From Hypomesus transpacificus (lineage: Eukaryota; Chordata; Actinopteri; Osmeriformes; Osmeridae): DNA of 64,000 nucleotides. The position numbers and the translations under genes are program-made. Shown here piece by piece: positions 1 to 53,000 of the stretch. Position 1 is the stretch's first letter, and each line of letters begins with the position of its first letter. The stretch spans positions 12,177,390 to 12,241,389 of the forward strand of contig NC_061070.1 of NCBI RefSeq assembly GCF_021917145.1, given 5' to 3'. Under the pieces are notes generated by a model. That model made no database searches and was not told the DNA's origin. It saw only the letters and a program-made list of their open reading frames with translations.

Positions 1-2900
1 CCCAACTCCTCCTGGTGTGAATGGGTGAATGAGAGGCAAAAAATGAAAAGCGCATTTAGCGCCTCTAAGGCAGAAAAGCGAATATAAATGCAGTCCATCC
101 TCTCCACCAATATTCTCCATCTGAATGGCATTACAATGTCACGACCCAAAAAGACAGAGCACAAGGATTAGCTTCATGCGTCTTTTCAAACTCCAGTCCC
201 TGCATCTCCTCTCAAAGTAAAGGCATAGAGATGTCCTGAATTGACCTTCAGTCTGGAGAGCAAAATATCTCAGCAGAGTCCTATTCCTTGAGTCCCGCTC
301 CTGGAGACAGAACAGTGGATGATCACTACTCTCTGAGGACCCTGAAGACCCATGCCTCAGTGAAGCAGCTTCATTAGTCATGCATAATGCATCCACTACT
401 GTACTACTCATCTTTTCCAAGACCCAGGAAGAACCAATAGAGATTATATTGTGACATTCATATGCAAGCTGTAGTATGTCTCAAATGAGGAGAAACTGGT
501 ATGTAAAATTTGATATTTCCATAACTTGTCTGTTGATAATTAATTGGCATACCTGCATGCATGATGTGTGTGACATTTAAACATGCATTTTCTGGACATA
601 TTTCAAGATGGTTAATTTGAATGGAAAATTGACAGTAAAGAAATACAATACAAATCCAATTTCAAACACAAGCTGCTGCAGCATACCATAAGAATCAACA
701 TAATTTATTTGTCTGACCACTACTCAGCCAGATTAAACAAATGTGGGGATGTCTTTATCTTTGCAGCTTCATGTGCACATACTGTCATCAAATAATGCAG
801 GGTGATTTTTGCTTGTTCGTTGGGCAGCTTCATCTCTATGCAAAAGCCCATTCCCCAACTCACAAATTCATTAAGCTATGACAGCACTGGTCAAACACAG
901 ATTGAACTTCACAAACAAAGGAGCACAATCTAATCAGCTGGATACTAAATTGCACAGACTGGGCATTTAGGCATTGAGTGACAGGTTGCTTTTGTTCAGT
1001 GGAACTGCTCCATAAGATTTGTCCTTGTTGATAATTTTCAAGCGATCATTAGAATGGGGTTGTAATCTGAACACTTTGAAGAAGGTTTATTTAAACAAAT
1101 AAATATATATATAGGTTTTGACATGGTGTATAAAAACTACATATAACAATTGTGATAATGGCTTTCACGTGTTACTTGATGACACGGATATAAATGATGC
1201 AAGTTTCCACATTCCGTCTGGAAAGTGACCATGCTTGAAAACCTCAAGCCAAATTGCATTTCTTATTCAACAGTTCTTTCAGGCATTTTGGTTCATTGCT
1301 TTTCTTGGAAATAATTTGGATATGGAAGAAAGGATTTTACCTACAGTTGGAAAGTTTGTGAGTGAATTACTTCATTTGTTATTTTCTGTATAACTCTAGC
1401 TACCACTCAACCCTATTAACACATGGGCAGTTAAAGGCTTCTCAAGAAGTGGTTCTTCAATATTCCCATACTGAACTGTGACAATCTGTTTTTGCTAAAC
1501 CAGTGTGCATAATCTGATTCACTGCTTTTAGAGCATGCTCCAACACAAACGGGATAAGCTCTTTACATAATATTTTGGCTCAATAGAGTGTCAGAGTATG
1601 CCTTGTATGGAATAAGCCGAATCAAATACCTTCCTGTAGGCAAAAGATGGACATGTTCCACAAAACAGTGTTTTTTCTATTACTTACCATGGATGTGATT
1701 TTCCTGTGTTCTTCCCTTGCTTTCTGTCATGTTCCCAGCTCTTACACCGCCCCTAGATTTATCCACAATGACCTATTTCTCTACAGTTCCATGTATGTAA
1801 AGCACATTTATACTCCTGTGGATGATCGTAAAGGGGTTTTGTGCTACCAGAAGTTCAAGATTGAGTTTATTTGGAAACACACTTAAATGTGTCAAATACA
1901 ATAACTGGACTTTGTGTGTGTGTTCCAATCGCCTTTAAAGCAATCTTAGGATTTCTTTCCTCTTCATCAGAGGAACTACAGTATGGTTAATTAGTTTGTG
2001 CTTTGGTTTGATTGTTATTAATTATGCAGACTTAAACAGAACCAGTAATTACAAAGAACAGCTTTCTGTCCTGTGCAGAACAATAGGCTTGTTAATTGTA
2101 TTTGTATACTCAGTATGCTCATTAGCTGCAGGGAAGCAAGGGTTTCAAATTGAACTGTTTCTTGTGGTTGAAGCAGAATAATTAGGCGTGGAGATTGGGA
2201 TCACTGTGTGACTGTATCACATCTGAAGTAATCAACTTGAAGATGACCTGCTCCTTATCTAACAAAGGCATGTTTCACTTACGTTTTATTGATCAAAATC
2301 CATCTTTTCAGATCACTTGAGTGAATGAGCAAATGTATCACTGCATGAATGGTATGTTCAGTATGTATCTTCATGATCCGGTAGTGCCTTCGAGATCATT
2401 AGTGTTGCTTCTGACAAGGTCCTCTGACTCCGCTACTCTAGTTAAATGCCTGACATGTTGAACACAGAATGTCATTAATCAAAGTAGATTCAGGTTTTAG
2501 ATGACAGTTTGACAGGAGATCAGAAACGTTCCTCATTCCAGTCCAAGACCCATCTCTGACAGTGCTACGTACTGTAGGCTGGAGTGAGTGGCTGTGCCTC
2601 TCAGTAAATCTGTAATGCGCACAGCAGTTAGGCTCGTCCACTCTGCTATTGATCAACATGGTCCCTCCGGAGGCTTACATTTTGGATGGTGGGATTGATC
2701 TCTTTATGAAATAATGCGATCAAACTCAGATTAACTGTGGGCCGGGCATCCAGACGCAGGGAATGATGCCTTTAGTTTGAATCATGGTTGCATTGTTCCC
2801 GAGCCGGACAGTTGGATGGAGTTTGTGTGTGTGTATGTGTGTGTGTGTGTTGGGGGGGTATGCGTGTGTGTGGGGGTGCGCACGAGAGACAAGAGAGAGA

Positions 2901-2987
<87 letters not shown>

Positions 2988-3530
2988 TAAAGAGAGAGTC
3001 GATACAACAACAGCAATATAAAATAATTGTCAGAATTACCTTGATCCCATCTTCTAAGCCAGCAGAGAAACTAAATCTTTTTACAGATGTGAGAAATTCA
3101 TGATCCCTTTCTGGCTTTCGGATTTAGATATAATGCCTATTTTTCATCTAAAAAAGTATGAGGCATTTTGGGATATCTGAAAATTAGGGGATTATAACCG
3201 ACTCAGACCCCTTGCTGAAGTGGGATCCTTGTTATTGCTGTCTTCTTCATGCTTGTGTCAGTTTATATGTGGGCATAGAAACGCTCTGCAACATCAATGG
3301 AAAGCTGTTACATTTAAGTGCACAGCTTTAGTGTACCTGAACTTTTCAGCAACCAAATCGCAAGCCCAAAATGAGATACCTTTTTCAAATATCGCAGTGC
3401 TCATATTCCCACCAAACTGCATTTCAAGTATGGGAAACGTTTTATGTATAGCATTCTTTTTAGAATCATCTTTGGACAGAGGTTTCGAGACAGTTTTGCT
3501 GAACCACAGACAGCAAACAGATAAACCACA
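1..3530. other. Non-coding, probably last intron of SYNDIG1
   Basis: I see no coding exon here. Short open frames have no recognisable protein similarity and no flanking splice logic. The terminal SYNDIG1 exon starts at 5829 with an acceptor site, so this stretch is most simply its preceding intron. I looked for the upstream exon that encodes the first hydrophobic segment of the family and did not find it. The only distinct structure is the GT/GA microsatellite at 2823-2985. Confidence 0.5.
2823..2985. repeat. Compound (GT)n / G-run / (GA)n microsatellite
   Basis: A GT-rich stretch (about 2823-2880, with an internal run of seven G) passes into a pure (GA)n tract from about 2914 to 2985. The open frames across it on both strands encode Arg-Glu or Ser-Leu dipeptide runs and are artefacts of the repeat. 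Confidence 0.95.
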
Positions 3531-3752: not shown

Positions 3753-5827
<2,075 letters not shown>

Positions 5828-24300: not shown

Positions 24301-26748
24301 CAAGCAACACAGAGTGAGAGTTCATTTGATCAGTCCCTCACCACAGGGTGGATGGCCGAGCCTGGCCACAACATGGCTTCGTTTACCATCGAGTTTCAGT
24401 ATCTTCCCATCAGATGTACCAGTGTACAGAACATCTAGAGACAAACAAACCGACTATCACATTCAAAATTCAACATTCAACATTTTATGGTTAAAGGCTG
24501 TTTGATTGGCTATGGCTATTGTTGTTGAAGTATGAAAAAAAATTATTGACTGATTCAAATGAATCCTTAAGAAAATGTACTAAGCAAATTGGGAGTAGGG
24601 GTACAAAAATGTTCTATGATCGAAGATTATATTTTTAATCCTTCAAATACAAAACAGCCAGATTTAGCTCTTCTGGTGAATAAAACTGTGGTTTACTTTG
24701 AAGCCCGAGTGACTAAGTGGCAGGCGCAACACTGGGGCAGAGTGCTGGTGTACCTAGTCTAGGCATTGGTAGAAGAAATGTGTAAAAAGTCTAACAAAGC
24801 ATGCCAGCTACTCAGACAGTCCAGCCTCTTCAACTTTAGCTTCGGAGATATGTCACGGCTCTTGCCAAGAACAAAAGTAGGTGACTGTCTGGTCAGACTC
24901 CAGCTGGACAAGCCAGCCCCTTCTGAGATCCCCAGCACACTGACCTCCAATGTTAGCGATGGACTCTGGGCCAACGATTTGGTCCTCAAACAGACGTTGT
25001 GCCTCTCTCAGTTTAAAGTTAGGCTCGTAACATCCCACCATGAGGGGTGGCTCACTAAGACTAAGGAAAACAGGAATAGAACAGCAAAGTGTTAAAATAT
25101 GTAAGTGTATTTAAAAGAAGCTGCAGGCCCATCTCCTCTGCTCAGGGAATGACTTGGCAGTAATCCAAGACAATTATCCAAGGATGGGCCATGCAGGGGT
25201 AGAGACAATGAGTTTTTTAGATCTTATTTGTGGTTTCAAATATTTCTAATAATTAATGCTGTACTGTTTGTCTTTTGTCCAGTGTGACATTTTCATTTGT
25301 GCCAACTTGAGTAATATGCTTGTAGTGTGTTTGTACCCTACAATGTTATCATGTTCTCTGTTTTTGCCTCAATAGGAAAGCTAGCCTAATAGAGACTTCT
25401 AATAAACCTTAAACAAAACCTTGACAAGACAATGAAGAGACTAAATCCCTGTCCTGGCCTGCCCTAGCGCAGACACCTGGGGCAGCAGAGAAATATGAAA
25501 GGGACGCTTGGCATCAGGACATCAAAATGGATCGTCAGGGATGCAGCACTGAGAAATGAATTTAAATGAGGGAGGAAGATGCATAGTAAACTACTTGGTT
25601 CCAGGGCACGGGAAATAATCCGATTAAATCATCTTTGAGACCGAGTTGAGGATCTTGTACGAGTCATGTGTTTTGTTCAAAGAAAATGCATTAATGGAGA
25701 GAAAGGGTTATGTGAGGATAGGGGTTGTCAGGTCCCATGGGAGCAAACAGATGCTCTATATCAAATTGATGTTTGGTTAATGCATGGTGATCATATTGGT
25801 CCTGAATCAGCACATTTTCATCAAAACTATTTAAAACAATGACATGTAAATGAGACACATTGACAACTTATCAGTTCCATCAATTTCCCCTCGAGGGTCA
25901 TCATTTTCAGCAGAGACCTCCAGTGGGCCTTTGATGCCAACAGAAGCACAACTTTCATGCATTAGGCAGTAGATGAGTAAGCATGAATTGTAAATATGAA
26001 TGATTTTAAACCTTGCAGTAAGGCCAGCTCAAACCTGAAAGATGGCTAGCTACCGACAGCAACGTTTTGCTCACCTGAGCAATTCTGGTTGGATAGGGGA
26101 CTCCAGGAGAAGAATGACTGCCAACAGTGGGAGTAGCAGGAAAGCTCCAAGAATCAGCAATGTCACACGAAAGACTTTTCCACTGTATGTGCTGTGGGAA
26201 GACAAACCAGCGATTTGGTCCTTATAAAGAGTAATTCGGCTATGTGCTTCATGAGCTTGTTGAAAAAAACGAAACATGTATGCATTTAGTTAGTTGTATT
26301 ATGAATAGTTTACATAGTGATTTCACAAGGGCTATGGCACAAAAGCAAACGGCTACGTGTTCTCTAAGGTTGTGCAATAATTTCAAACAAAGTGAATGCA
26401 GAAAAAACGCACAATAATATATATACCTTCTTTGCAAGTATGACACGTCACTGCCAAAACAAAACTGACCTAGATACGCGGAATATTACTGGAATGTACC
26501 GCGCACACTATACACGCACATTGTCTCTCCTACCTGGTAAGTGGCGTATAGCTACGCTAGAATGGGTGATGTTGTTATGAGCGTTCGAAGTATGATTTGA
26601 TGGTTACCGTTTACTACAAATTAAATTGTATATAGCTAAAGGCATCTAGAGCATACCTGGTGCCCTTGTAGAGGGGTTCCTGTAGCTCGTCAGTGATAAT
26701 TTGTGGTCTGTTCAGTCTCCTGAACCGTAGTCCTTCTGGCTCATTCAT
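21319..26748 (-). CDS. apmap: Adipocyte plasma membrane-associated protein (9 exons)
   Basis: Exons from 5' to 3' on the minus strand are 26657-26748, 26075-26191, 24945-25060, 24342-24434, 23782-23898, 23377-23551, 23087-23221, 21798-21990 and 21319-21528. All junctions are GT-AG and keep frame, giving 415 aa (human 416). The ATG at 26746-26748 starts MNEPEGLR. A single signal-anchor membrane segment covers about residues 37-60 (VFRVTLLILGAFLLLPLLAV). The rest is a strictosidine-synthase-like six-bladed beta-propeller, with VGPESIA, CGRPLGIRVGPNGTLFVADAY, FVNDLDVTQDGRKVYFTDSS, RFPNGLQL, VAETTMARI, LPGFPDN and YISEVHEHDGHLYLGSFRSP. Family knowledge: a type II membrane protein with arylesterase activity and a role in adipocyte differentiation. 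It is divergent from POLH, with the Harbinger element between them. Confidence 0.96.
22704..22731. repeat. C-rich/A-run low-complexity tract in an APMAP intron
   Basis: Runs of C interrupted by a single A are followed by seven A. The tract lies inside the APMAP intron between exons 21798-21990 and 23087-23221 and is not near a splice site. Confidence 0.85.
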
Positions 26749-27310
26749 GTTGAAATGACACCTCCAAGTTAAACTCTGTTGACAAAGGATACAATTCTAA
26801 ATGCGCAAATCGCTACATAAGCAGGTTGTTCCTTTAGTGGTTTGCAGAGACAGTCCTCTTCTCAGCATCGTCGATATTCTGTACACTCTGCTGTCAATCG
26901 CGGACCAATCTTTAGCGTATACTATGTCGTCATATCATTGCGCCTTGACCTGGGGAACCGACCAATGGGACCGACCGTTTCATCTATCCACATTTTTCTC
27001 CGTTCTTGTGTTCTTGCGAACTCGTTTAACGTCATATTTCATTGCCCAAGGACGGTTCCAATCCAAAGAAACCAAGACATTCTCTGACACAAGTCAGTAG
27101 AGCCCGTCTACTAATAATAACTACTAATAATGTCTCATTAGACATTCTCTGAAGACATCTTTAACGCCAAAAATACCCGGAAGTGTTCTTGATCTGCAAC
27201 TTTTATCAAGGATGCATCGGATGGTGACTTCAGAGAAAGGCTCTGGTGACTTGGTCAACTTGAACGCATGATTTCCCAGAAGTCATTGCAAGAACACACG
27301 CATGTCATAT

Positions 27311-27382
27311 CGTTCTCCGTCCTCGCGTCCTTGCTGCTAGACCGTTCTCACAAGACGCTTAGCAACGTTCTTCTCAAGAACG
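27311..27382. repeat. Left Harbinger end repeat
   Basis: This shares CGTTCTCCGTCCTCG, CAAGACGCTT and ACGTTCTTCTCAAGAAC with the right-end copy at 30795-30865 in the same orientation. The block GTTCTTCTCAAGAAC is itself a short palindrome. It sits just upstream of the Myb-like start codon. Confidence 0.75.
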
Positions 27383-27438
27383 CAAGTACGTTTTTAGCAT
27401 TGATTGAACGCATCTGATTTCACACAAGTCATTTCAAG

Positions 27439-28858
27439 ATGTCAGGAGAGGCGGACAAACATAACTGTAAGTTTTTACTATTCTTATTTCAGCTAAATAG
27501 TACGCGTAAATCAGCATCTGAATTAAATTATGACGAGAAATGGGCAGTGTAGTCGCTGAAAATGTGTTTATTTTATTGATGAAAGGGCTCATTTGTAAAT
27601 GTATTCGATAACCTAGCTAACATCTCAGTGCAGCATGGGCCACAGAAAACGTAACATTTCAGGTAGGTACGTTTTTTAGCTTTGTTATCTAGTTTTTGTA
27701 GTTGATTCTCCCTTTTCAAATGTCATATCGATCATATATTGAATACAGATATATCTTCACGTGAATATTTTATTCAGGGACTGCTGAGGAGATTACAGCC
27801 CTCATTGAGTGGAGGGGGGCGAATGAGTCTGTTTTCACTGGGAAGAGAAACTCATCAAAATCTGGATGGGAGTGAGTAGAGATTCTAAAGATTATAATTT
27901 AGCAAATAAAACATGTTCACTTAAATACAACAAAGTAATCCAAGCCATTGTAGTTGAGGTATGATTTACTTTGCGGTAGCAGATGGGAAACAGGCACCTG
28001 CTGCAAATAGCATTTTAGTTTCTTTCACTAGTTTTTGCTCAGTAGTTTTGACAAATAACCAAAATAGTTAATTATAGATAAAAATGCTTAATATTTATCA
28101 GTTTCCCTGAATTGCTCATAGAGAGGGAAGAGAATATGAATTGAACTGTTGATGTGACTTCCACTTTGTTTTTCCCAGAGCCTTCGTGAATCAGGCAGAG
28201 TTTAAAATTACAGACAAACAAGCTAAGAAAAAATGGAACAACTTGAAAGAAAAATACAAGGTAATTTAAAACAATTGTGAAGTCAGATGTGATGTTTCTT
28301 AGTGTTGTACAGCTTCCAACACCAGTTGTTGTTTTAGCACCTCCAAATATCAGGAAATTTGTGACAAGCTTAGTGCTTTCATTAGTTAATAATAATAAAT
28401 AAAATCCTCATGATTTCATATTTAAAATTATATACACAAATGTCTAAGGTCCTAGCAACTCTGCAACTTAATTGTTGGATTTTTGCCTAAAGGAGCTGAG
28501 GGACCCACCACCAGGGAAAGGGGTGGAGGCAGTCACTGCTGCCACCTGGCAGTGGTATGCCCCAATGGATGCAGCACTCCAGGAACAGCATTCTATTAAT
28601 CCACCTCTGGTAGCTGCTGCAAACATGACATCCACTGCAGGTGGTGTTAGAGCCTCCTCTGCCCCTGCCAGGAAGAGAGCTAAGCCAGCGCCAAGGAAGA
28701 GGGCAGGTGATCTCCTGGACTTCTTGAAAATGCAGGCGGAGAAAGAAGAGGAGAGAGAGAGCCAGGCTCTTCAAAGGGAAGAGGAGAGGGAGAGGGCAGC
28801 AGCCGCCAGAAGCGAAAAATTCCTCTCACTTTTTGAAAAATTGGTTGACAAACTTTAA
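27439..28858 (+). CDS. Harbinger Myb/SANT-like DNA-binding protein (4 exons)
   Basis: Exons are 27439-27466, 27778-27871, 28179-28260 and 28493-28858, giving 189 aa in frame. The start MSGEADKHN leads into a Myb/SANT-like (MADF-type) trihelix with the expected aromatic anchors: W10 in WTAEEITALIEWR, W at the end of SSKSGWE, and KKKWNNLKEKYK. A proline/alanine linker follows with a basic patch (PARKRAKPAPRKRAG), then a charged helical tail (EKEEERESQALQREEERERAAAA) ending FEKLVDKL. In Harbinger elements this partner carries the transposase to the nucleus and to the transposon ends; domesticated relatives include NAIF1. An AATAAA at 28860-28865 nearly touches the stop codon. It is convergent with the transposase gene about 300 bp away. 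No stop or frameshift interrupts it. Confidence 0.85.
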
Positions 28859-28859
28859 T

Positions 28860-28865
28860 AATAAA
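28860..28865 (+). promoter_or_regulatory. Poly(A) signal AATAAA of the Myb-like gene
   Basis: A canonical AATAAA begins two bases after the stop codon at 28856-28858, implying a very short 3' UTR, as is common in compact transposon genes. Confidence 0.6.
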
Positions 28866-29171
28866 ATATAAAAAAATCTGATTACTTGACAAGACAGTTA
28901 ATAACCTCCTACATTCAGCACTGACAGAACATATTGTGTAGTGCTGAGAAGGGAATGCCACAGCAATGCCAAGGGTCTCAAAATTGAATTGGCATCAAAA
29001 ATAACTTCATACAATACAGTGTAAATAAGACAATACACTAATTTACAAACATTTAATGTAAAGAAACAATATTACATAGGCTATATATTAAAGCAAACCA
29101 AATCTTAGAAAATATTACACATTCAAAGTTTACCTCTCACCCTACTTGGCACAGTCTTGTGTTTTTATCCC

Positions 29172-30714
29172 CTAAATGTAATCATGCTCCTGCAGAGATA
29201 CATTGAGTTCTGTAGGAGCAGAAAGATGTGCAGCCAGTCTAGCGCGGAGGTTGTTGCCAGACACCTCCTGCTCATCTGCACAGTCCTCCAGATTGTCACC
29301 CTCTTCCTCATGCTGAGGATGGTCCACCTCCAAGATGTCGTTCACAGAGAGACAAACGTTGTGGAGAACGCAGCAGGCAGCAACCACCTTGGGGACAAAC
29401 AGAGGACGCACTTCCAGACCCCTTAGAAAGATGGATCTCCAGCGAGTTTTCAGTATGCCAAAAGTGCGCTCAATTACGCAGCTTGCTTTGGCATGGTGGC
29501 TGTTGAACCGGGCCTCAACACTTCCTGGTGGAATACATAATGGTGTAGAAATGTTATATGGTTACATTATTTAGTAGTGTTGTTTTTTTACTGTGTTATT
29601 TATGTGTTTATGCATGTGTTGGCAACTTTAGATTTAGGTCCAGTAAATATCCCTACCAGCTATAGGCTGTCGAAACGGGGTGATGACAGCCACAGGATTC
29701 TGCAGGCATGGATATCCACCATCTCCAAGGAGGAAATAACCAGCCGGGGGATAAAGGGACTCCTTGAACATTGGGGAGCTCCGCAGGACAAGGGCATCGT
29801 GGACAGAACCTGTGTTGCCAATGTGCACGTCAATGAACTTTCCACGGCTGTCACAAATGCCCTGCAGGATAACTATGGGAAAGAGCTTGCGGTTCAAGTG
29901 ACTCTTTTTTAGTGGCCTAGCAGGTGGACGGATTTTGATGCGGCACCCATCAATGGCTCCTGCAGCGAAGCAGAAGGCTTCATGGCCGGCCAGGTGAACA
30001 AAACCTGCCCCCACCCCCTCCATCTCATCGGCCTTGGGGAAATGGATGATGCGGTGGAGGATTGTCATCATTTCCTCTACCACGTGGTGTACAGCTCTGC
30101 ACACTGTAGCCACTGGCATAGAAAAGGCATTGGATGTCACACGGTATGAAGCACCACATGCAAGCCAGTAAACAAACATGAAGACTTCCATCTCGTGGCT
30201 CCAACCATGCCTTTTTTTTCTCGGCAGGACCTGGACCAGCAGCTGGATGGTCGCCCTGGCGAGCTTGAAGGCTGGTTTGGTGTCTTCATCTGAGAACACT
30301 ATCTTGAGGATGGGCACTTGGTCATTTACTTGAGCATAGTTCTGTGGAGTTCCATCCTATTTAAAATTAAAATGAGATAAAAGTTTACAATTTTTTTGCG
30401 ACAACTTTACCTAATACAAAATAAAGTGGCCATTTTATTTAACTGTCGGGCAACATAACAATGGGTCGTTGTGAACCATTGGGTCATTGTGACCCGAAGG
30501 CAGCACTTGGTTGAGTAAATGGTTTTGTTACTATTCGACCACTTACATTGAGAAAGATAAGTGATAGCATTTGACGAAGCCTCGCCATCCTCATCCGTCT
30601 CATTCTGGCCCTCCTCCTCTGGATCAGTTGCCTCAGCTCAGCTGCCTCCTCCTCAGCTTTCAAGTAAAGTGACCCTATAGCCACTGTTACCAGTGCCCTT
30701 CTGTTTGTTTCCAT
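29172..30714 (-). CDS. HARBI1-like Harbinger transposase (3 exons)
   Basis: Minus-strand exons 30547-30714, 29657-30356 and 29172-29524 join in frame to 406 aa. The start METNRR is preferred because an Arg-rich helix (LIQRRRARMRRMRMARLRQ) follows; an in-frame ATG lies further 5' at 30766-30768. A helix-turn-helix-like stretch (ASYRVTSNAFSMPVATVCRAV) precedes the DDE nuclease domain. All three catalytic positions are visible: D192 in AIDGCRI, D268 in GDGGYP and E308 in ERTFGILKTRW, with the family block NTGSVHDALVLR between them. The C-terminus has the usual CCVLHNVCL motif. The frame is uninterrupted, so catalytic capacity appears preserved. A possible ATTAAA lies at 29052-29057 on the minus strand. 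The alternative of a domesticated HARBI1 is less likely, because the Myb partner and end repeats sit beside it. Confidence 0.88.
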
Positions 30715-30794
30715 AATTGTCTGATTTGATTCATACGTTTTATATGTATATATATATGTATTGCGCAATAGCCAAGAAAACCTTCATATAAATT

Positions 30795-30865
30795 CGTTCT
30801 CCATCCTCGTGGTCTTGAAGAACGTTTTCGCAAGACGCTTGGCAAGAACGTTCTTCTAAAGAACA
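30795..30865. repeat. Right Harbinger end repeat with internal palindrome
   Basis: This is the counterpart of 27311-27382. Inside it, 30817-30856 is a near-perfect palindrome: GAAGAACGTTTTCGCAAG on one side of ACG and CTTGGCAAGAACGTTCTTC on the other. It lies 80-150 bp beyond the transposase start codon. Confidence 0.75.
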
Positions 30866-30932
30866 TTAGCTTTCTTCTGACTGATTAACAGCCGGACCAG
30901 ACCGAGCCACAACAGTCCCAGTCGATTACTGA

Positions 30933-30940
30933 TGACGTAA
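30933..30940 (+). promoter_or_regulatory. CRE-like motif upstream of POLH
   Basis: TGACGTAA lies about 330 bp upstream of the POLH start codon, just outside the Harbinger right-end repeat. It matches the cAMP-response-element core by sequence only. Position relative to a real transcription start is unknown. Confidence 0.3.
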
Positions 30941-31271
30941 AGGTTTGATATTATTTTGCGCGAAAGTTAGCTAAACAGACGGAAGCCGTCGTTTTCACCG
31001 TATCCGAGTGACACATACATTGCATAGGATTTAGTTAACCGAAAGAAAAACATAATCCAAAACCTGGTAGAAGTTAGCTAGTGACGCTGAGTATAAAGCT
31101 AGCGTGCTTTTTACGATCGGAGTTCCGCAACTCAAACTACTAGGCTACAGTTAAGCTAGCTAGCTTTACTAGCTTGTTGCACTGACGATTTAGCTAGCTG
31201 ATCTGAGTTCAATATCTCTAAATATCGCTTTGTTGTAGTCTGTACAAGCTCTTGGTTCCATACCAATAAGG

Positions 31272-34200
31272 ATGGAGTACGGGAAGGAAAGGGTTGTGGC
31301 GCTGGTAGACATGGACTGTTTCTACGTTCAGGTGGAGCAGAGGTTGAATCCAGCCTTGAAGAACATCCCATGTGTGGTTGCCCAATACAAGACTTGGAAG
31401 GGAGGCAGGTGAGTTTCTGACACAAAGATGCTATTTCTATGGCCACTGCAGTTTGGAGCGATCCGGTTATCATTAGCAGAAAAGCAGTTTGCTGCCTTTA
31501 GTTAAGATCCCTCCCTATAATTTTAGTCTATGACATGTGTTTTAGGTTTCCCTCAAAACACCTGATTGACCCATTCATTTGAATCAAGTGTGTTGGAAGA
31601 GGAAACACATGTTTAATATGCAGAGTAGGATTGAGAACCACTGGTCTATGCACAGGACCAGGGGACATGTTTAAGTCAGACATAGGCATAGCTAAAAGCA
31701 TTTCTCCAAGTTGCATGGACCATACAATTCAGCATCTCTGTGTTGGCAACTTACCCACCTTGCCTACTCTGTGTCTAGCTAATATTGGCCTACAAAAAGG
31801 AGCAAGTTTCATATCTCGTTTATCCTGAACAATTTATCACATTTTCAACATCATATTTCTGTTCCTTCCCCCCAGTATTATAGCGGTGAGTTATGAGGCC
31901 AGGGCTCATGGGGTGACAAGGAATATGTGGGCTGATGATGCTAAAATACTGTGTCCAGATCTCCAAGTGGCGCGGGTTAGGGAGTCTCATGGCAAAGCAG
32001 ACCTCACTCAGTAAGTTGCCTGAAACCCACCAATCCATTCTCATACTTCGATCAAAAATAGGCCTCACTAAATGTACCTTGTTTAGTAAATGAACCCAAC
32101 AGAACAGACTTCTTCATTTGAATATCCTCTTACTGTCTGCCATCAAATGACCCAATAGCATGTTCAGAAGTGCTTCAATGATATTTTTCTCTGCATAGTT
32201 ACCGTGAGGCCAGTGTGGAAGTGATCGAGGTGATGTCTCGTTTCGCTGTGATCGAGAGGGCCAGTATAGACGAAGCCTACATGGATCTGACAGCTGCTGT
32301 GCAGCAGAGGCTGAAGGACATGACAGATCTTCATGTAGACCCTGGCCTGCTGAAGGCCACCCATGTTCAGGGCTATCCACAGGATCCCTCAGACCAGGAG
32401 GGGGCCCCAGAGGACACTGGCACAGATAAAGGTGGGTTGGAAACAACTCTAAATGTGTTGCCATTAACTACTGTTGATTGGCACTGATGAAGAACCTCCT
32501 TTTTTGGGATGTGACATCACTGGACAGGAAACAAAACTTAAACTCACTAGCGGAGAGGGGAGAAAATAAGAGGTTGCAACGTGGTGCTCGTAGCTGTGCT
32601 GGGGTAGGCTCAAACTGGGACAACCCATGCCCACCCATACAGTAGCTCTAAGCTGACTGAAAACGCTCTGGTTCTTGTTCACAGAGATGCAGAGGTCCAG
32701 AGGGCTGCAGCAGTGGCTTGGCTCCCTTCCAGTCCCTCCGGCTGGGGCCCTGGGGCTGCCCAGTGCCGAGCTGCAGCTGGCGGTGGGGGCCGTGATCGTG
32801 GAGGAGATGAGAGCAGCTGTGGAGCAGCATACAGGCTTCCGCTGCTCTGCCGGGATATCCCACAACAAGGTCAGTGCACCCTCTGCCACTCCACATATGG
32901 AGAGGCCATGTTTGTAGTCAGGAGCAGTCATCCATGGGGTCCTTTGGTTTATGTTTGCCATCTCTGTCCAGGTGCTGGCTAAACTAGCCTGTGGCCTCAA
33001 CAAGCCCAACCGCCAGACTGTCTTGCCTCTAGACTCGGTACCTGAGCTCTTCAACTCTCTCCCCATCGGCAAGATGTGAGTTCTTGTGTGGTGTTGTACT
33101 ATGTTGTATTATGTTATTGAATGGATACCAGTCAGCATGTGCTGTTGTTTATGTGCAGTCGAAATCTGGGCGGAAAACTAGGGGCGTCCATCTCCGAGAC
33201 CCTGAAGGTGGAAAACATGGGAGATCTGACCCGCTTCTCTCCGGCTCAGCTTGGACAGAGCTTTGGGGACAAGACCGGGTAGGAACCACTACCCCACTGT
33301 CCTAACAGTCTCTCATTCTCCCAAGCCCTTCCTCCTCCACCCACACAAACACCCATCATCATCATCCCCTCGTCTAATGAGATGTGTCCTGTGTGCAGAC
33401 CATGGCTGCATGACATGTGTCGGGGGATCGACTTTGAAGCTGTCAAGCCCAGGCAGCTTCCAAAGTCTATTGGCTGCAGTAAAAACTTTGCTGGGAGGAC
33501 ATCGCTTGTCACCAAAGAGCAGGTACACAAATACATCATGCTTCCCATCATGCCTCAACTGTTCCTTTTTATTCCGGGCAAATGTGTGTTGGATGTCCGC
33601 AGCTGTTCATCTTGATCCGTGTGTTCAGGTGCAGCACTGGCTCTACCAGCTAGCTCTGGAGTTGGAGGAGAGGCTGACCAAGGATAAAGACATGGTGAGA
33701 ACCTCTCCAACTGATCTTTTCTTTGGCTGAACTCTCCCTGTGTCCTTGTCACTCTCAGAACAACTGAAGAATGAACTCTCGTCTCTGTGACTCATGACAG
33801 AATGGTCGAGTGGCCAAACAGTTGACTGTGGGTATTCGGCAGTTGGGGGAAAAAAAGCCAAGCAGCTTCTCCCGCTGCTGTGCGCTAGCACGCTACGACG
33901 CTACCAAGATCTCGACCGACAGCTTTGCCATCATCAAGAGTCTGAACACGGCGGGAAACCACCAGGCGGCATGGTAACACAGGAACTCTCTTCCTCAGTG
34001 CTGTAAAGCAAACCCAGTTTTCAGCTGTCATGTATTTGACACCACCCTCTTCTCTTTCTATATCTCTGTCTCCCTCCATCATCAGGACTCCGCCCCTCAC
34101 CTTGCTCCACCTCTCCGCCAGCAAGTTCAATGATGCCCCCTCTGCAGGGTCAGGGGGAATCGCTGGTTTCCTGTCTAGTGATGTCACATCCACGCAGAGT

Positions 34201-50837: not shown

Positions 50838-52865
50838 ATGAAGGAAGAGCCCTCCAATGTTCTTCAATACGTTATTCCTATATCTGTTTCACCAGGGGCA
50901 CCACAGATACTGAAGTATACCCAGTTGAGAAAAGAGGGCTGTCACAAACAAAAATCAATGCTCTCTCGCTTGTCCTCCGTCGAGATCAATACAAACCTGT
51001 TTATGTTCTCCTCTCCCACAAAATGTCGAGCGAGTAAAAATATTCCCAGCTTCTCAGAGAGGTTCTCCTACCAAGAAGTCTAAAACAGAAGCTGTTGCTA
51101 CTACTGTCTCTATTGGGAGAATCTTGAGATAACACAACTTGTTCCATCATAATGTTTTGAATGAGAATTCATTTGTTAGAGATGCACTTACCTCATGGTT
51201 CAAATAAACACCCTCCCATGGTGCTCTCTCACATTTCCCAACCTGTTAATGGTGTCTATAGATTGTTCCCCTAAGATCCGGATTTAATCGTTGAAGTGAA
51301 AAACACATTTACGTAAATCCTCAAATAACTTTGCCCTCAAATACAGTCTCCAGCTTATGATATGTTGTTTCTGGTTGTCTATTACAGTACTATTGTATCG
51401 ATCCAGTCATGTATATTTGGCTGTTTGCATTGAAAGTTTTTTGAAGCCCAATAAAATGTTTTGGGCACAGCTCCTAACGCCTCAAGACCTAGTTAGACCT
51501 AGTCAGTCTCTAGTCAGAAAAAAAAGCTTAGGGCGGTTGCCATGGTGACAGGCAAGGCTGCCGTGACAGAGAGTGATGGGGAAACTAGGATAGAGAGAGT
51601 TTGTGTGTATGTTTGTGTGTGAAGGGGGCAGCTGTGAAATACTTTGTTCGATATCCCCCACCTCCCCTAACACACACACTTTTACACCCATTATTACCAA
51701 GTCGTGATTTTTTCTTTCACAATAACCTTTTGTAACAGGTCGTAGGTGCACAATTCGTCAGTCATCCCAATCCTTTTCCCTCATGGTACTCAATCCTGGG
51801 ACCTTTCACTAGCCTTGTACACCAACTAGCTTAGTTAGCTTTCGTGGTTGCGGTTAGTCTGTATTTACACTGATTAAACTATAGTTTCATCAATCCACAT
51901 TGGTTACACTTGGACAAATGCTTCTACTTTCTGTTGTAAAAAACTGTTGTGTATTGAACTTTCCATATCTCGACAAATGCAAAGCAAAAACCACAATGAA
52001 TAATAATAAATAAATAAAAACATTGAAACATGTTAAAAGTCTGAACCTGCACCTGGATACAGTCAAGGAAGGGGAGCAGAATGGAGCCACGTCTGCCTCT
52101 GATGAAACCTTATCCACTGCAGATTGGAGGGAATTGAGGTTGAAATGAGAAAAAGATTAAATAATTGGGCCAAAACATTTGAAGTAAAAACACACAGGTA
52201 CCCAGTGTTACTACGATGAGTTCCATTGTGGAGCAAACAGCCTCATTTCTCCCAACAAGCCAACATCTTAGCCGTTGTTCCGGTAGAAAGAATATTTACT
52301 TGGAACAATGGCAGAACACTACGCTTGTGGTAGGCTGAATTATTTGAGTGTGTTCGTGTGACTGTCTGTGTGTGTCTGCTTGTGTATTTGTGTTAGTCAA
52401 TGCACGTGTGTGTGTGTGCTAGCCGTTACAGATTGCCAGTTTTAATCAGCTCTCACCTGTATGGATGGTCAGACCTGTCGGCACAGATCTCCTTCAAGAA
52501 GATCCTCTGGCAAACACAAACACCTGCCTGTTCCTTCGATGGAAGCAACCAGGATAACAGCATTTTAGGTGAAGCGTACACAAGGTAATGCGTTCACAAC
52601 ATTTATTGGACTGTGGTGTGTATGTTCATACTTTACTGTTGAAAACAACAATCAGATTGTGGATGAGTACCGTAGAGGCTCATGGACTGTGTTGTTGATA
52701 AATAAAGGGAAAGTACTCATCCAGGAGATTACCTACGGTACATATGTATGGGTGAGGTGTAGGAGCTGCAGCATGTTATCATCTATCATCAACACCGATT
52801 TCCCCAAATCACTCCTGAAATCAATTGCATACTGAAGCTATCAGAGAGAAAGAAAGAGTGATAGG
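50837..52865. other. Intergenic, nothing recognised
   Basis: I see no exon or RNA gene. Short GT-rich runs occur near 51600 and 52360-52420. The longest open frames have no recognisable family signature. Confidence 0.45.
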
Positions 52866-52869
52866 AAGA

Positions 52870-52938
<69 letters not shown>

Positions 52939-53000
52939 AAAGAGAAAGAGAGAAAGAGAGAAAGAGAGAAAGAGAGAAAGAGAGAAAGAGAGAGAGAAAA
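52866..53000. repeat. (GA)n and (AGAGAA)n purine tract
   Basis: A pure purine strand: (GA)n up to about 52938, then AGAGAAAG-type repeats to about 53000. It has opposite strand polarity to the (TC)n tract at 50.8 kb. Confidence 0.93.

Follow-up and report, generated by a model that had tools for sequence, protein, structure and literature searches.

Two multi-exon genes that face one another lie within a PIF/Harbinger element at 26973..30893 of the window, by which we mean the whole 64,000-nucleotide stretch of Hypomesus transpacificus DNA analyzed here, part of contig C11 in a genome of 437 Mb and 376 contigs. The region 26500–31500 was read and both gene models were rebuilt. On the forward strand, a Myb/SANT-like gene (27439..28858) encodes a protein of 189 aa in four exons (27439–27466, 27778–27871, 28179–28260, and 28493–28858), while on the reverse strand a DDE transposase gene (29172..30714) encodes 406 aa in three exons (30714–30547, 30356–29657, and 29524–29172). 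The genes are convergent, neither contains a stop or a frameshift, and five of five introns are GT-AG, in agreement with the two intact spliced genes described in an earlier note on this DNA. Its assignment of the element and its gene content to Harbinger was also borne out by Pfam, with the Myb-like protein matching Myb_DNA-bind_4 (PF13837; E 5.9e-11, 43.1 bits, cut-off 27) and the transposase matching DDE_Tnp_4 (PF13359; E 6.3e-26, 91.3 bits, cut-off 24.8), so that the open frames are no chance product.

The same note had described the catalytic residues as kept, which holds for the triad itself (D192, D268, and E308) but not for its neighbors, several of which are altered relative to residues common to the sister copies with data, among them H195R, Y209H, and R304S. 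Exon 2 of the transposase scores 42.1 bits against DDE_Tnp_4, below the 51.0 and 52.8 bits of the broken copies on contigs C8 and C14, and the exon 3 piece scores 24.5, compared with 29.0 for C8, 29.0 for C14, and 25.0 for a copy on C373; under the weaker model DDE_Tnp_1, exon 2 scores 16.3 in the window versus 14.3 in the C8 copy. A PDB sequence search with the transposase returned nothing, a viral-contig scan found no relatives, and a structure model predicted from the single sequence had a mean pLDDT of 35, too low to be usable. In a scan of prokaryote genomes, one match turned up, spanning 31 residues of the transposase (48%), in a metagenome-assembled genome of Gemmatimonadetes (L050:3001–3099); it is either a distant relative or a chance match. 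The middle of transposase intron 1 (30357–30546) differs wholly from that of other copies, with both splice sites in agreement, and is possibly replaced sequence.

Beyond the right end of the element begins a host gene on the forward strand (start at 31272..31412, with an IMS domain), whose start codon lies 379 bp from the element and 558 bp, head-to-head, from the start of the transposase. Judging from IMS domain matches in open reading frames at 31.2–32.5 kb and a UBZ finger in one at 33.9–35.1 kb, this gene is probably polh, and at so short a distance the transposase gene could be reached by host promoter activity. Elsewhere, the window carries the dinucleotide TC repeated perfectly 77 times (5671–5825) and further long dinucleotide tracts at 2884–2998 and 52843–52997.

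The element itself is longer and more complex than first described. Both limits given in the earlier note (27311 and 30865) fall inside a directly repeated right-end sequence, and alignment with the copies on C14 and C51 and with MITE copies places the termini at about 26973 (left) and at 30893 (right), the whole comprising a MITE remnant and a gene-bearing copy. On the forward strand, the MITE-like segment (26973..27402, about 430 bp) is non-autonomous and matches two MITEs, L024 and L023, end to end, minus the right terminus and plus some insertions; it thus contains a left end and right-end sequence with no right TIR. At 27404..27439, again on the forward strand, a 36-bp stretch restarts the left end directly before the Myb-like start codon, repeating 27260–27293 at 86% by self-BLAST, and here begins a 5'-truncated gene-bearing element without its own left end. 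Because the MITE alignment stops short of a right terminus and the left end restarts at 27404, the element joins a MITE to a gene-bearing copy, the facing termini of both having been lost. Positions 27294–27405 are missing from the C14 and C51 copies in the alignment and, together with 30758–30893, constitute two copies of the family right-end sequence in direct orientation; the idea that terminal direct repeats bound the element near 27.3 and 30.8 kb was therefore rejected. The second of them (30758..30893, forward strand) is a subterminal repeat common to many MITEs, with at least 41 genomic matches including the window itself and the copy on C15, a lower bound since 40 of 68 candidates were scored. 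Within the window repeat, 13 of 126 positions (10.3%) deviate from a rough consensus.

The hexamer GTTCTT occurs 10 times in the 602 bp of element ends (26973–27438 and 30758–30893) and is absent from the 3319-bp interior, and the 59600 bp that make up the rest of the window contain it 41 times; it is a candidate binding site for the Myb-like protein. In the C51 copy (L012:2457–3997), MITE-like units run head to tail at a spacing of 612 bp, inverted with respect to the gene-bearing copy, and this Harbinger family may be prone to forming tandem junctions with truncated ends.

As a family, these elements carry the hallmarks of PIF/Harbinger, namely a DDE_Tnp_4 transposase, a Myb/SANT-like partner, TIRs, and a 3-bp TSD. 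The family TIR, GGCTGTTTATCAATCC, is recognizable over about 16 bp. Right TIRs were scored at the expected place beside each match with no edit filter, whereas an earlier count had kept low-edit TIRs alone and was blind to decay. Across 33 loci (13 among the right-end matches listed plus 20 further fetched, leaving out the window and the C15 copy), the right TIR had no edits in 11, one in 15, two in two, and three in two, for a total of 28 of 33 with at most two edits, and was beyond recognition (5–7 edits) in the other three. In the window, the right TIR (30878..30893, forward strand; TGACTGATTAACAGCC versus family GGATTGATAAACAGCC) has three mismatches, and the left TIR (26973..26989, forward strand; GACCGTTTCATCTATCC) has three substitutions and one inserted base relative to the family form, that is, three and four edits in 16 bp. 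Since random 105-base pieces of the window reach four or fewer TIR edits in 11 of 500 cases, the left TIR was located through its continuous alignment to the left ends of other elements and not by its motif alone.

Insertion of the family leaves an exact 3-bp flanking duplication, detected in 8 of 21 left–right TIR pairings, two of which use one common right TIR (chance P 6e-10). The outside flanks share the consensus AGACANT ahead of the TIR in two overlapping sets of 28 and 50 distinct flanks (support in the set of 50: A 33, G 21, A 31, C 37, A 29, T 39), from which it follows that the family target is the palindrome AGAC-ANT-GTCT. The ends of the window copy show no 3-bp duplication and no AGAC-ANT-GTCT target. 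A GGACC pentamer beside both ends might be taken for a 5-bp duplication, a reading that was rejected because the family duplicates 3 bp. Among the other gene-bearing copies, TIRs within three substitutions of the family form are present at both ends of the C14 and C51 copies, at one end of the C15 copy, and at neither end of the C8 and C373 copies, so that one or both recognizable TIRs are missing in three of five. Right-end deviation from the consensus is 10.8% in the C15 copy and 18%–22% in the C14 and C51 copies, compared with the 10.3% of the window. The window TIRs look more eroded than the divergence of the interior predicts, an excess that would perhaps reflect a greater age of the MITE part.

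These features place the family close to described systems. Teleost Harbinger families, in the excerpt of their description used here (PMC9179366), likewise combine a two-gene structure, a 3-bp TSD, and a teleost host, although their TIRs are usually 25–50 bp, longer than the approximately 16 bp recognizable here. The zebrafish element Harbinger3_DR, active in its reconstructed form, likewise encodes a DDE transposase and a Myb-like protein according to part of one report (PMC9710019), and its target is strongly palindromic, AAACACCWGGTCTTT, in the relevant passage of another (PMC3016246), as is the target of the present family, the two being compared by description. Unlike Harbinger3_DR, which is a reconstruction, the window copy is natural and eroded, and the target of its family differs in sequence, being AGAC-ANT-GTCT.

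A DNA search with transposase exon 2 gave at least eight matches, the window included: copies on C8 (95%), C14 (94%), C15 (91%), C51 (93%, with a further 45-bp exon 2 piece at 100%), and C373 (94% over 268 bp), and, also on C14, an older copy (L014) at 80%. Near-identical copies, which the earlier note had proposed to look for, did not emerge: no long near-identical copy of the transposase was present among the genome matches listed from this one exon 2 search, the best long non-self match among them, in the main transposase exon, being 95% over 717 bp, with others at 91%–94% and one at 80%. Ten-kilobase stretches around six copies were then fetched and aligned, an exon being called missing where no match fell within 10 kb. 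All five of the other gene-bearing copies are broken by stops, frameshifts, or missing exons. The C8 copy has a stop in the transposase, and no Myb exons 1–3 were found. In the C14 copy, a stop interrupts the transposase, and Myb intron 3 carries an insertion of approximately 1.7 kb (L010, about 1690–3357). Both the C15 and the C51 copies have stops and frameshifts; Myb exon 2 and transposase exon 3 were not found in the former, nor was transposase exon 1 in the latter. The C373 copy consists of fragments, and L014, the sixth and older copy, matches in pieces only.

Aligned pieces of the C8, C14, and C51 copies are 90%–96% alike. The window differs from the five copies by 6.0%–6.6% in transposase coding sequence, 8.2%–10.4% in Myb coding sequence, and 8.8%–11.3% in Myb introns. 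High divergence of the other copies had been named beforehand as an outcome that would speak against recent activity, and at 6%–10% in coding sequence this outcome applies to a moderate degree. The tree branch of the window (0.056) is similar in length to that of the C15 copy (0.054), with the others at 0.017–0.039.

Selection was assessed with a codon model custom-written for this analysis. On the window branch, the transposase had an omega of 1.08 (p = 0.84 versus 1), and its window-unique changes comprised 31 nonsynonymous to 11 synonymous, with a neutral expectation of approximately 73% nonsynonymous; purifying selection on the transposase was not found by this model, and the gene is under no detectable constraint. 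For the Myb-like gene, omega was 0.37 (p = 0.010 versus 1), an estimate resting on 29 window-unique changes (15 nonsynonymous and 14 synonymous), with two genes tested, and the changes behind the low value extend beyond the Myb domain. Jointly, the two genes gave an omega of 0.66–0.69. The fitted window branch is 0.121 for the Myb-like gene and 0.033 for the transposase gene, and the two halves may differ in history.

With the older copy L014 as outgroup, 18 coding changes fell on the window and 9 on the other copies, with three coding sites unresolved, while non-coding changes numbered 4 and 10, respectively; although the counts are small, this suggests that the coding sequence of the window evolves no slower than its non-coding sequence. 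When this outgroup is left out, the window branch also includes changes from the stem of the other copies, and window-unique change per site is then 0.031 in transposase exons, 0.040 in transposase introns, and 0.067 in Myb introns, the lower value in exons being one that would fit a partly constrained branch. Given the low complexity of the non-coding parts, intron indels were set aside as a clock. Were all 71 window-unique coding changes neutral, the probability of no stop in either gene would be 0.09, rising to 0.30 if half were neutral; counting frameshifts lowers the probability of no break further, by an amount that depends on the assumed 3–8 events. With none of the five other gene-bearing copies in the comparison intact, open frames are somewhat unusual; the surprise is modest, and this copy was picked for analysis for being open.

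We consider it probable that the locus holds an old PIF/Harbinger copy upstream of polh, composite in structure, with eroded ends and a drifting transposase, and most likely immobile. This explanation builds on the anatomy, chimerism, eroded ends, and divergence of the copy, together with the TIR, TSD, and target of its family. Based on roles known from the literature, the Myb-like protein of the family would bind the element ends, and the DDE transposase would cut and join the element into AGAC-ANT-GTCT, leaving the 3-bp duplication. A MITE and a gene-bearing element would have become joined after the loss of their facing termini, if we have the order of events right, and because the outer TIRs are eroded, the resulting copy is probably immobile in cis. 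For part of its branch the copy would have belonged to an active, constrained lineage; it would then have drifted, and by luck no frame was hit. Counted against such a relic are the open frames, where every other compared copy is broken, and the Myb-like omega; also counted against it was that damaged ends are common among the other gene-bearing copies.

The rice Tourist MITE mPing derives from Ping. In the portion of the literature on mPing and its Harbinger helper used here, short MITEs share their ends with a two-gene element, as in the present family, and mobilization of the rice MITE was shown experimentally (PMC2836001), whereas none of the copies seen here has both intact genes and intact ends. 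The window copy might be immobile in cis and yet supply functional proteins in trans to the MITEs of its family; its open frames and triad, and the many genomic end-matching loci with perfect or near-perfect TIRs, favor such a role. We regard this as unlikely, given the altered residues and lower domain score of the transposase; moreover, of 12 sampled MITE-type right ends, 10 are 4%–8% off the rough consensus and the remaining two 13% and 20%, which speaks against recent movement.

A domestication in progress, in which the host keeps one or both proteins (the Myb-like protein most plausibly) while the ends decay, seems to us quite improbable, even though several observations point in its direction: both frames have stayed open over a long branch while the five sisters compared broke, the ends are eroded and show no TSD, the low omega of the Myb-like gene (p = 0.01) is as expected for a retained protein, and the short head-to-head distance to polh would possibly allow expression from sequence shared with the polh promoter. 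Precedents exist in the co-domesticated transposase and Myb-like pairs HARBI1/NAIF1 and those of insect PIF elements, which, in the excerpt available (PMC9710019), combine intact coding regions with faded ends as here, and in a fish Harbinger-derived MADF protein that acts beside a 7SL gene, as reported in part of a further study (PMC11893794). The same excerpt on co-domestication (PMC9710019) lists intact coding regions, loss of transposon hallmarks, purifying selection, and conserved synteny as criteria; in the window, the coding regions are intact, the TSD is gone, and the TIRs are eroded yet recognizable. In contrast to the HARBI1/NAIF1 and insect PIF pairs as they appear there, the window transposase gives no sign of purifying selection, and it has lost residues common to its sisters, while the Myb signal consists of 29 changes that reach beyond the Myb domain and comes from one of the two genes that were tested. 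A more specific reading, in which the domestication beside polh is young and the host retains the Myb-like protein, perhaps also the transposase, of an immobile copy, with the Myb-like protein possibly binding the GTTCTT-rich MITE ends, is in our estimation very doubtful. Least credible of all is the autonomous or recently active element that the earlier note had proposed. Both genes are open with the DDE triad present, and the similarity among the C8, C14, and C51 pieces indicates family activity within that range of divergence, but in the window copy the TIRs are eroded, a TSD is lacking, the left end is chimeric, the transposase is unconstrained, and the coding sequence differs by 6%–10% from every close copy compared.

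In a fish genome, an old, composite, and most likely immobile copy would be unremarkable, apart from a small residual question over its Myb-like gene. Open frames and a kept catalytic triad alone do not indicate an active transposon, and at this locus the ends, the target duplication, the sister copies, and the substitution pattern point away from the activity that the open frames suggest. If the weak signal in the Myb-like gene is true, the locus would represent an early stage in the recruitment of a transposon protein beside the DNA-repair gene polh.
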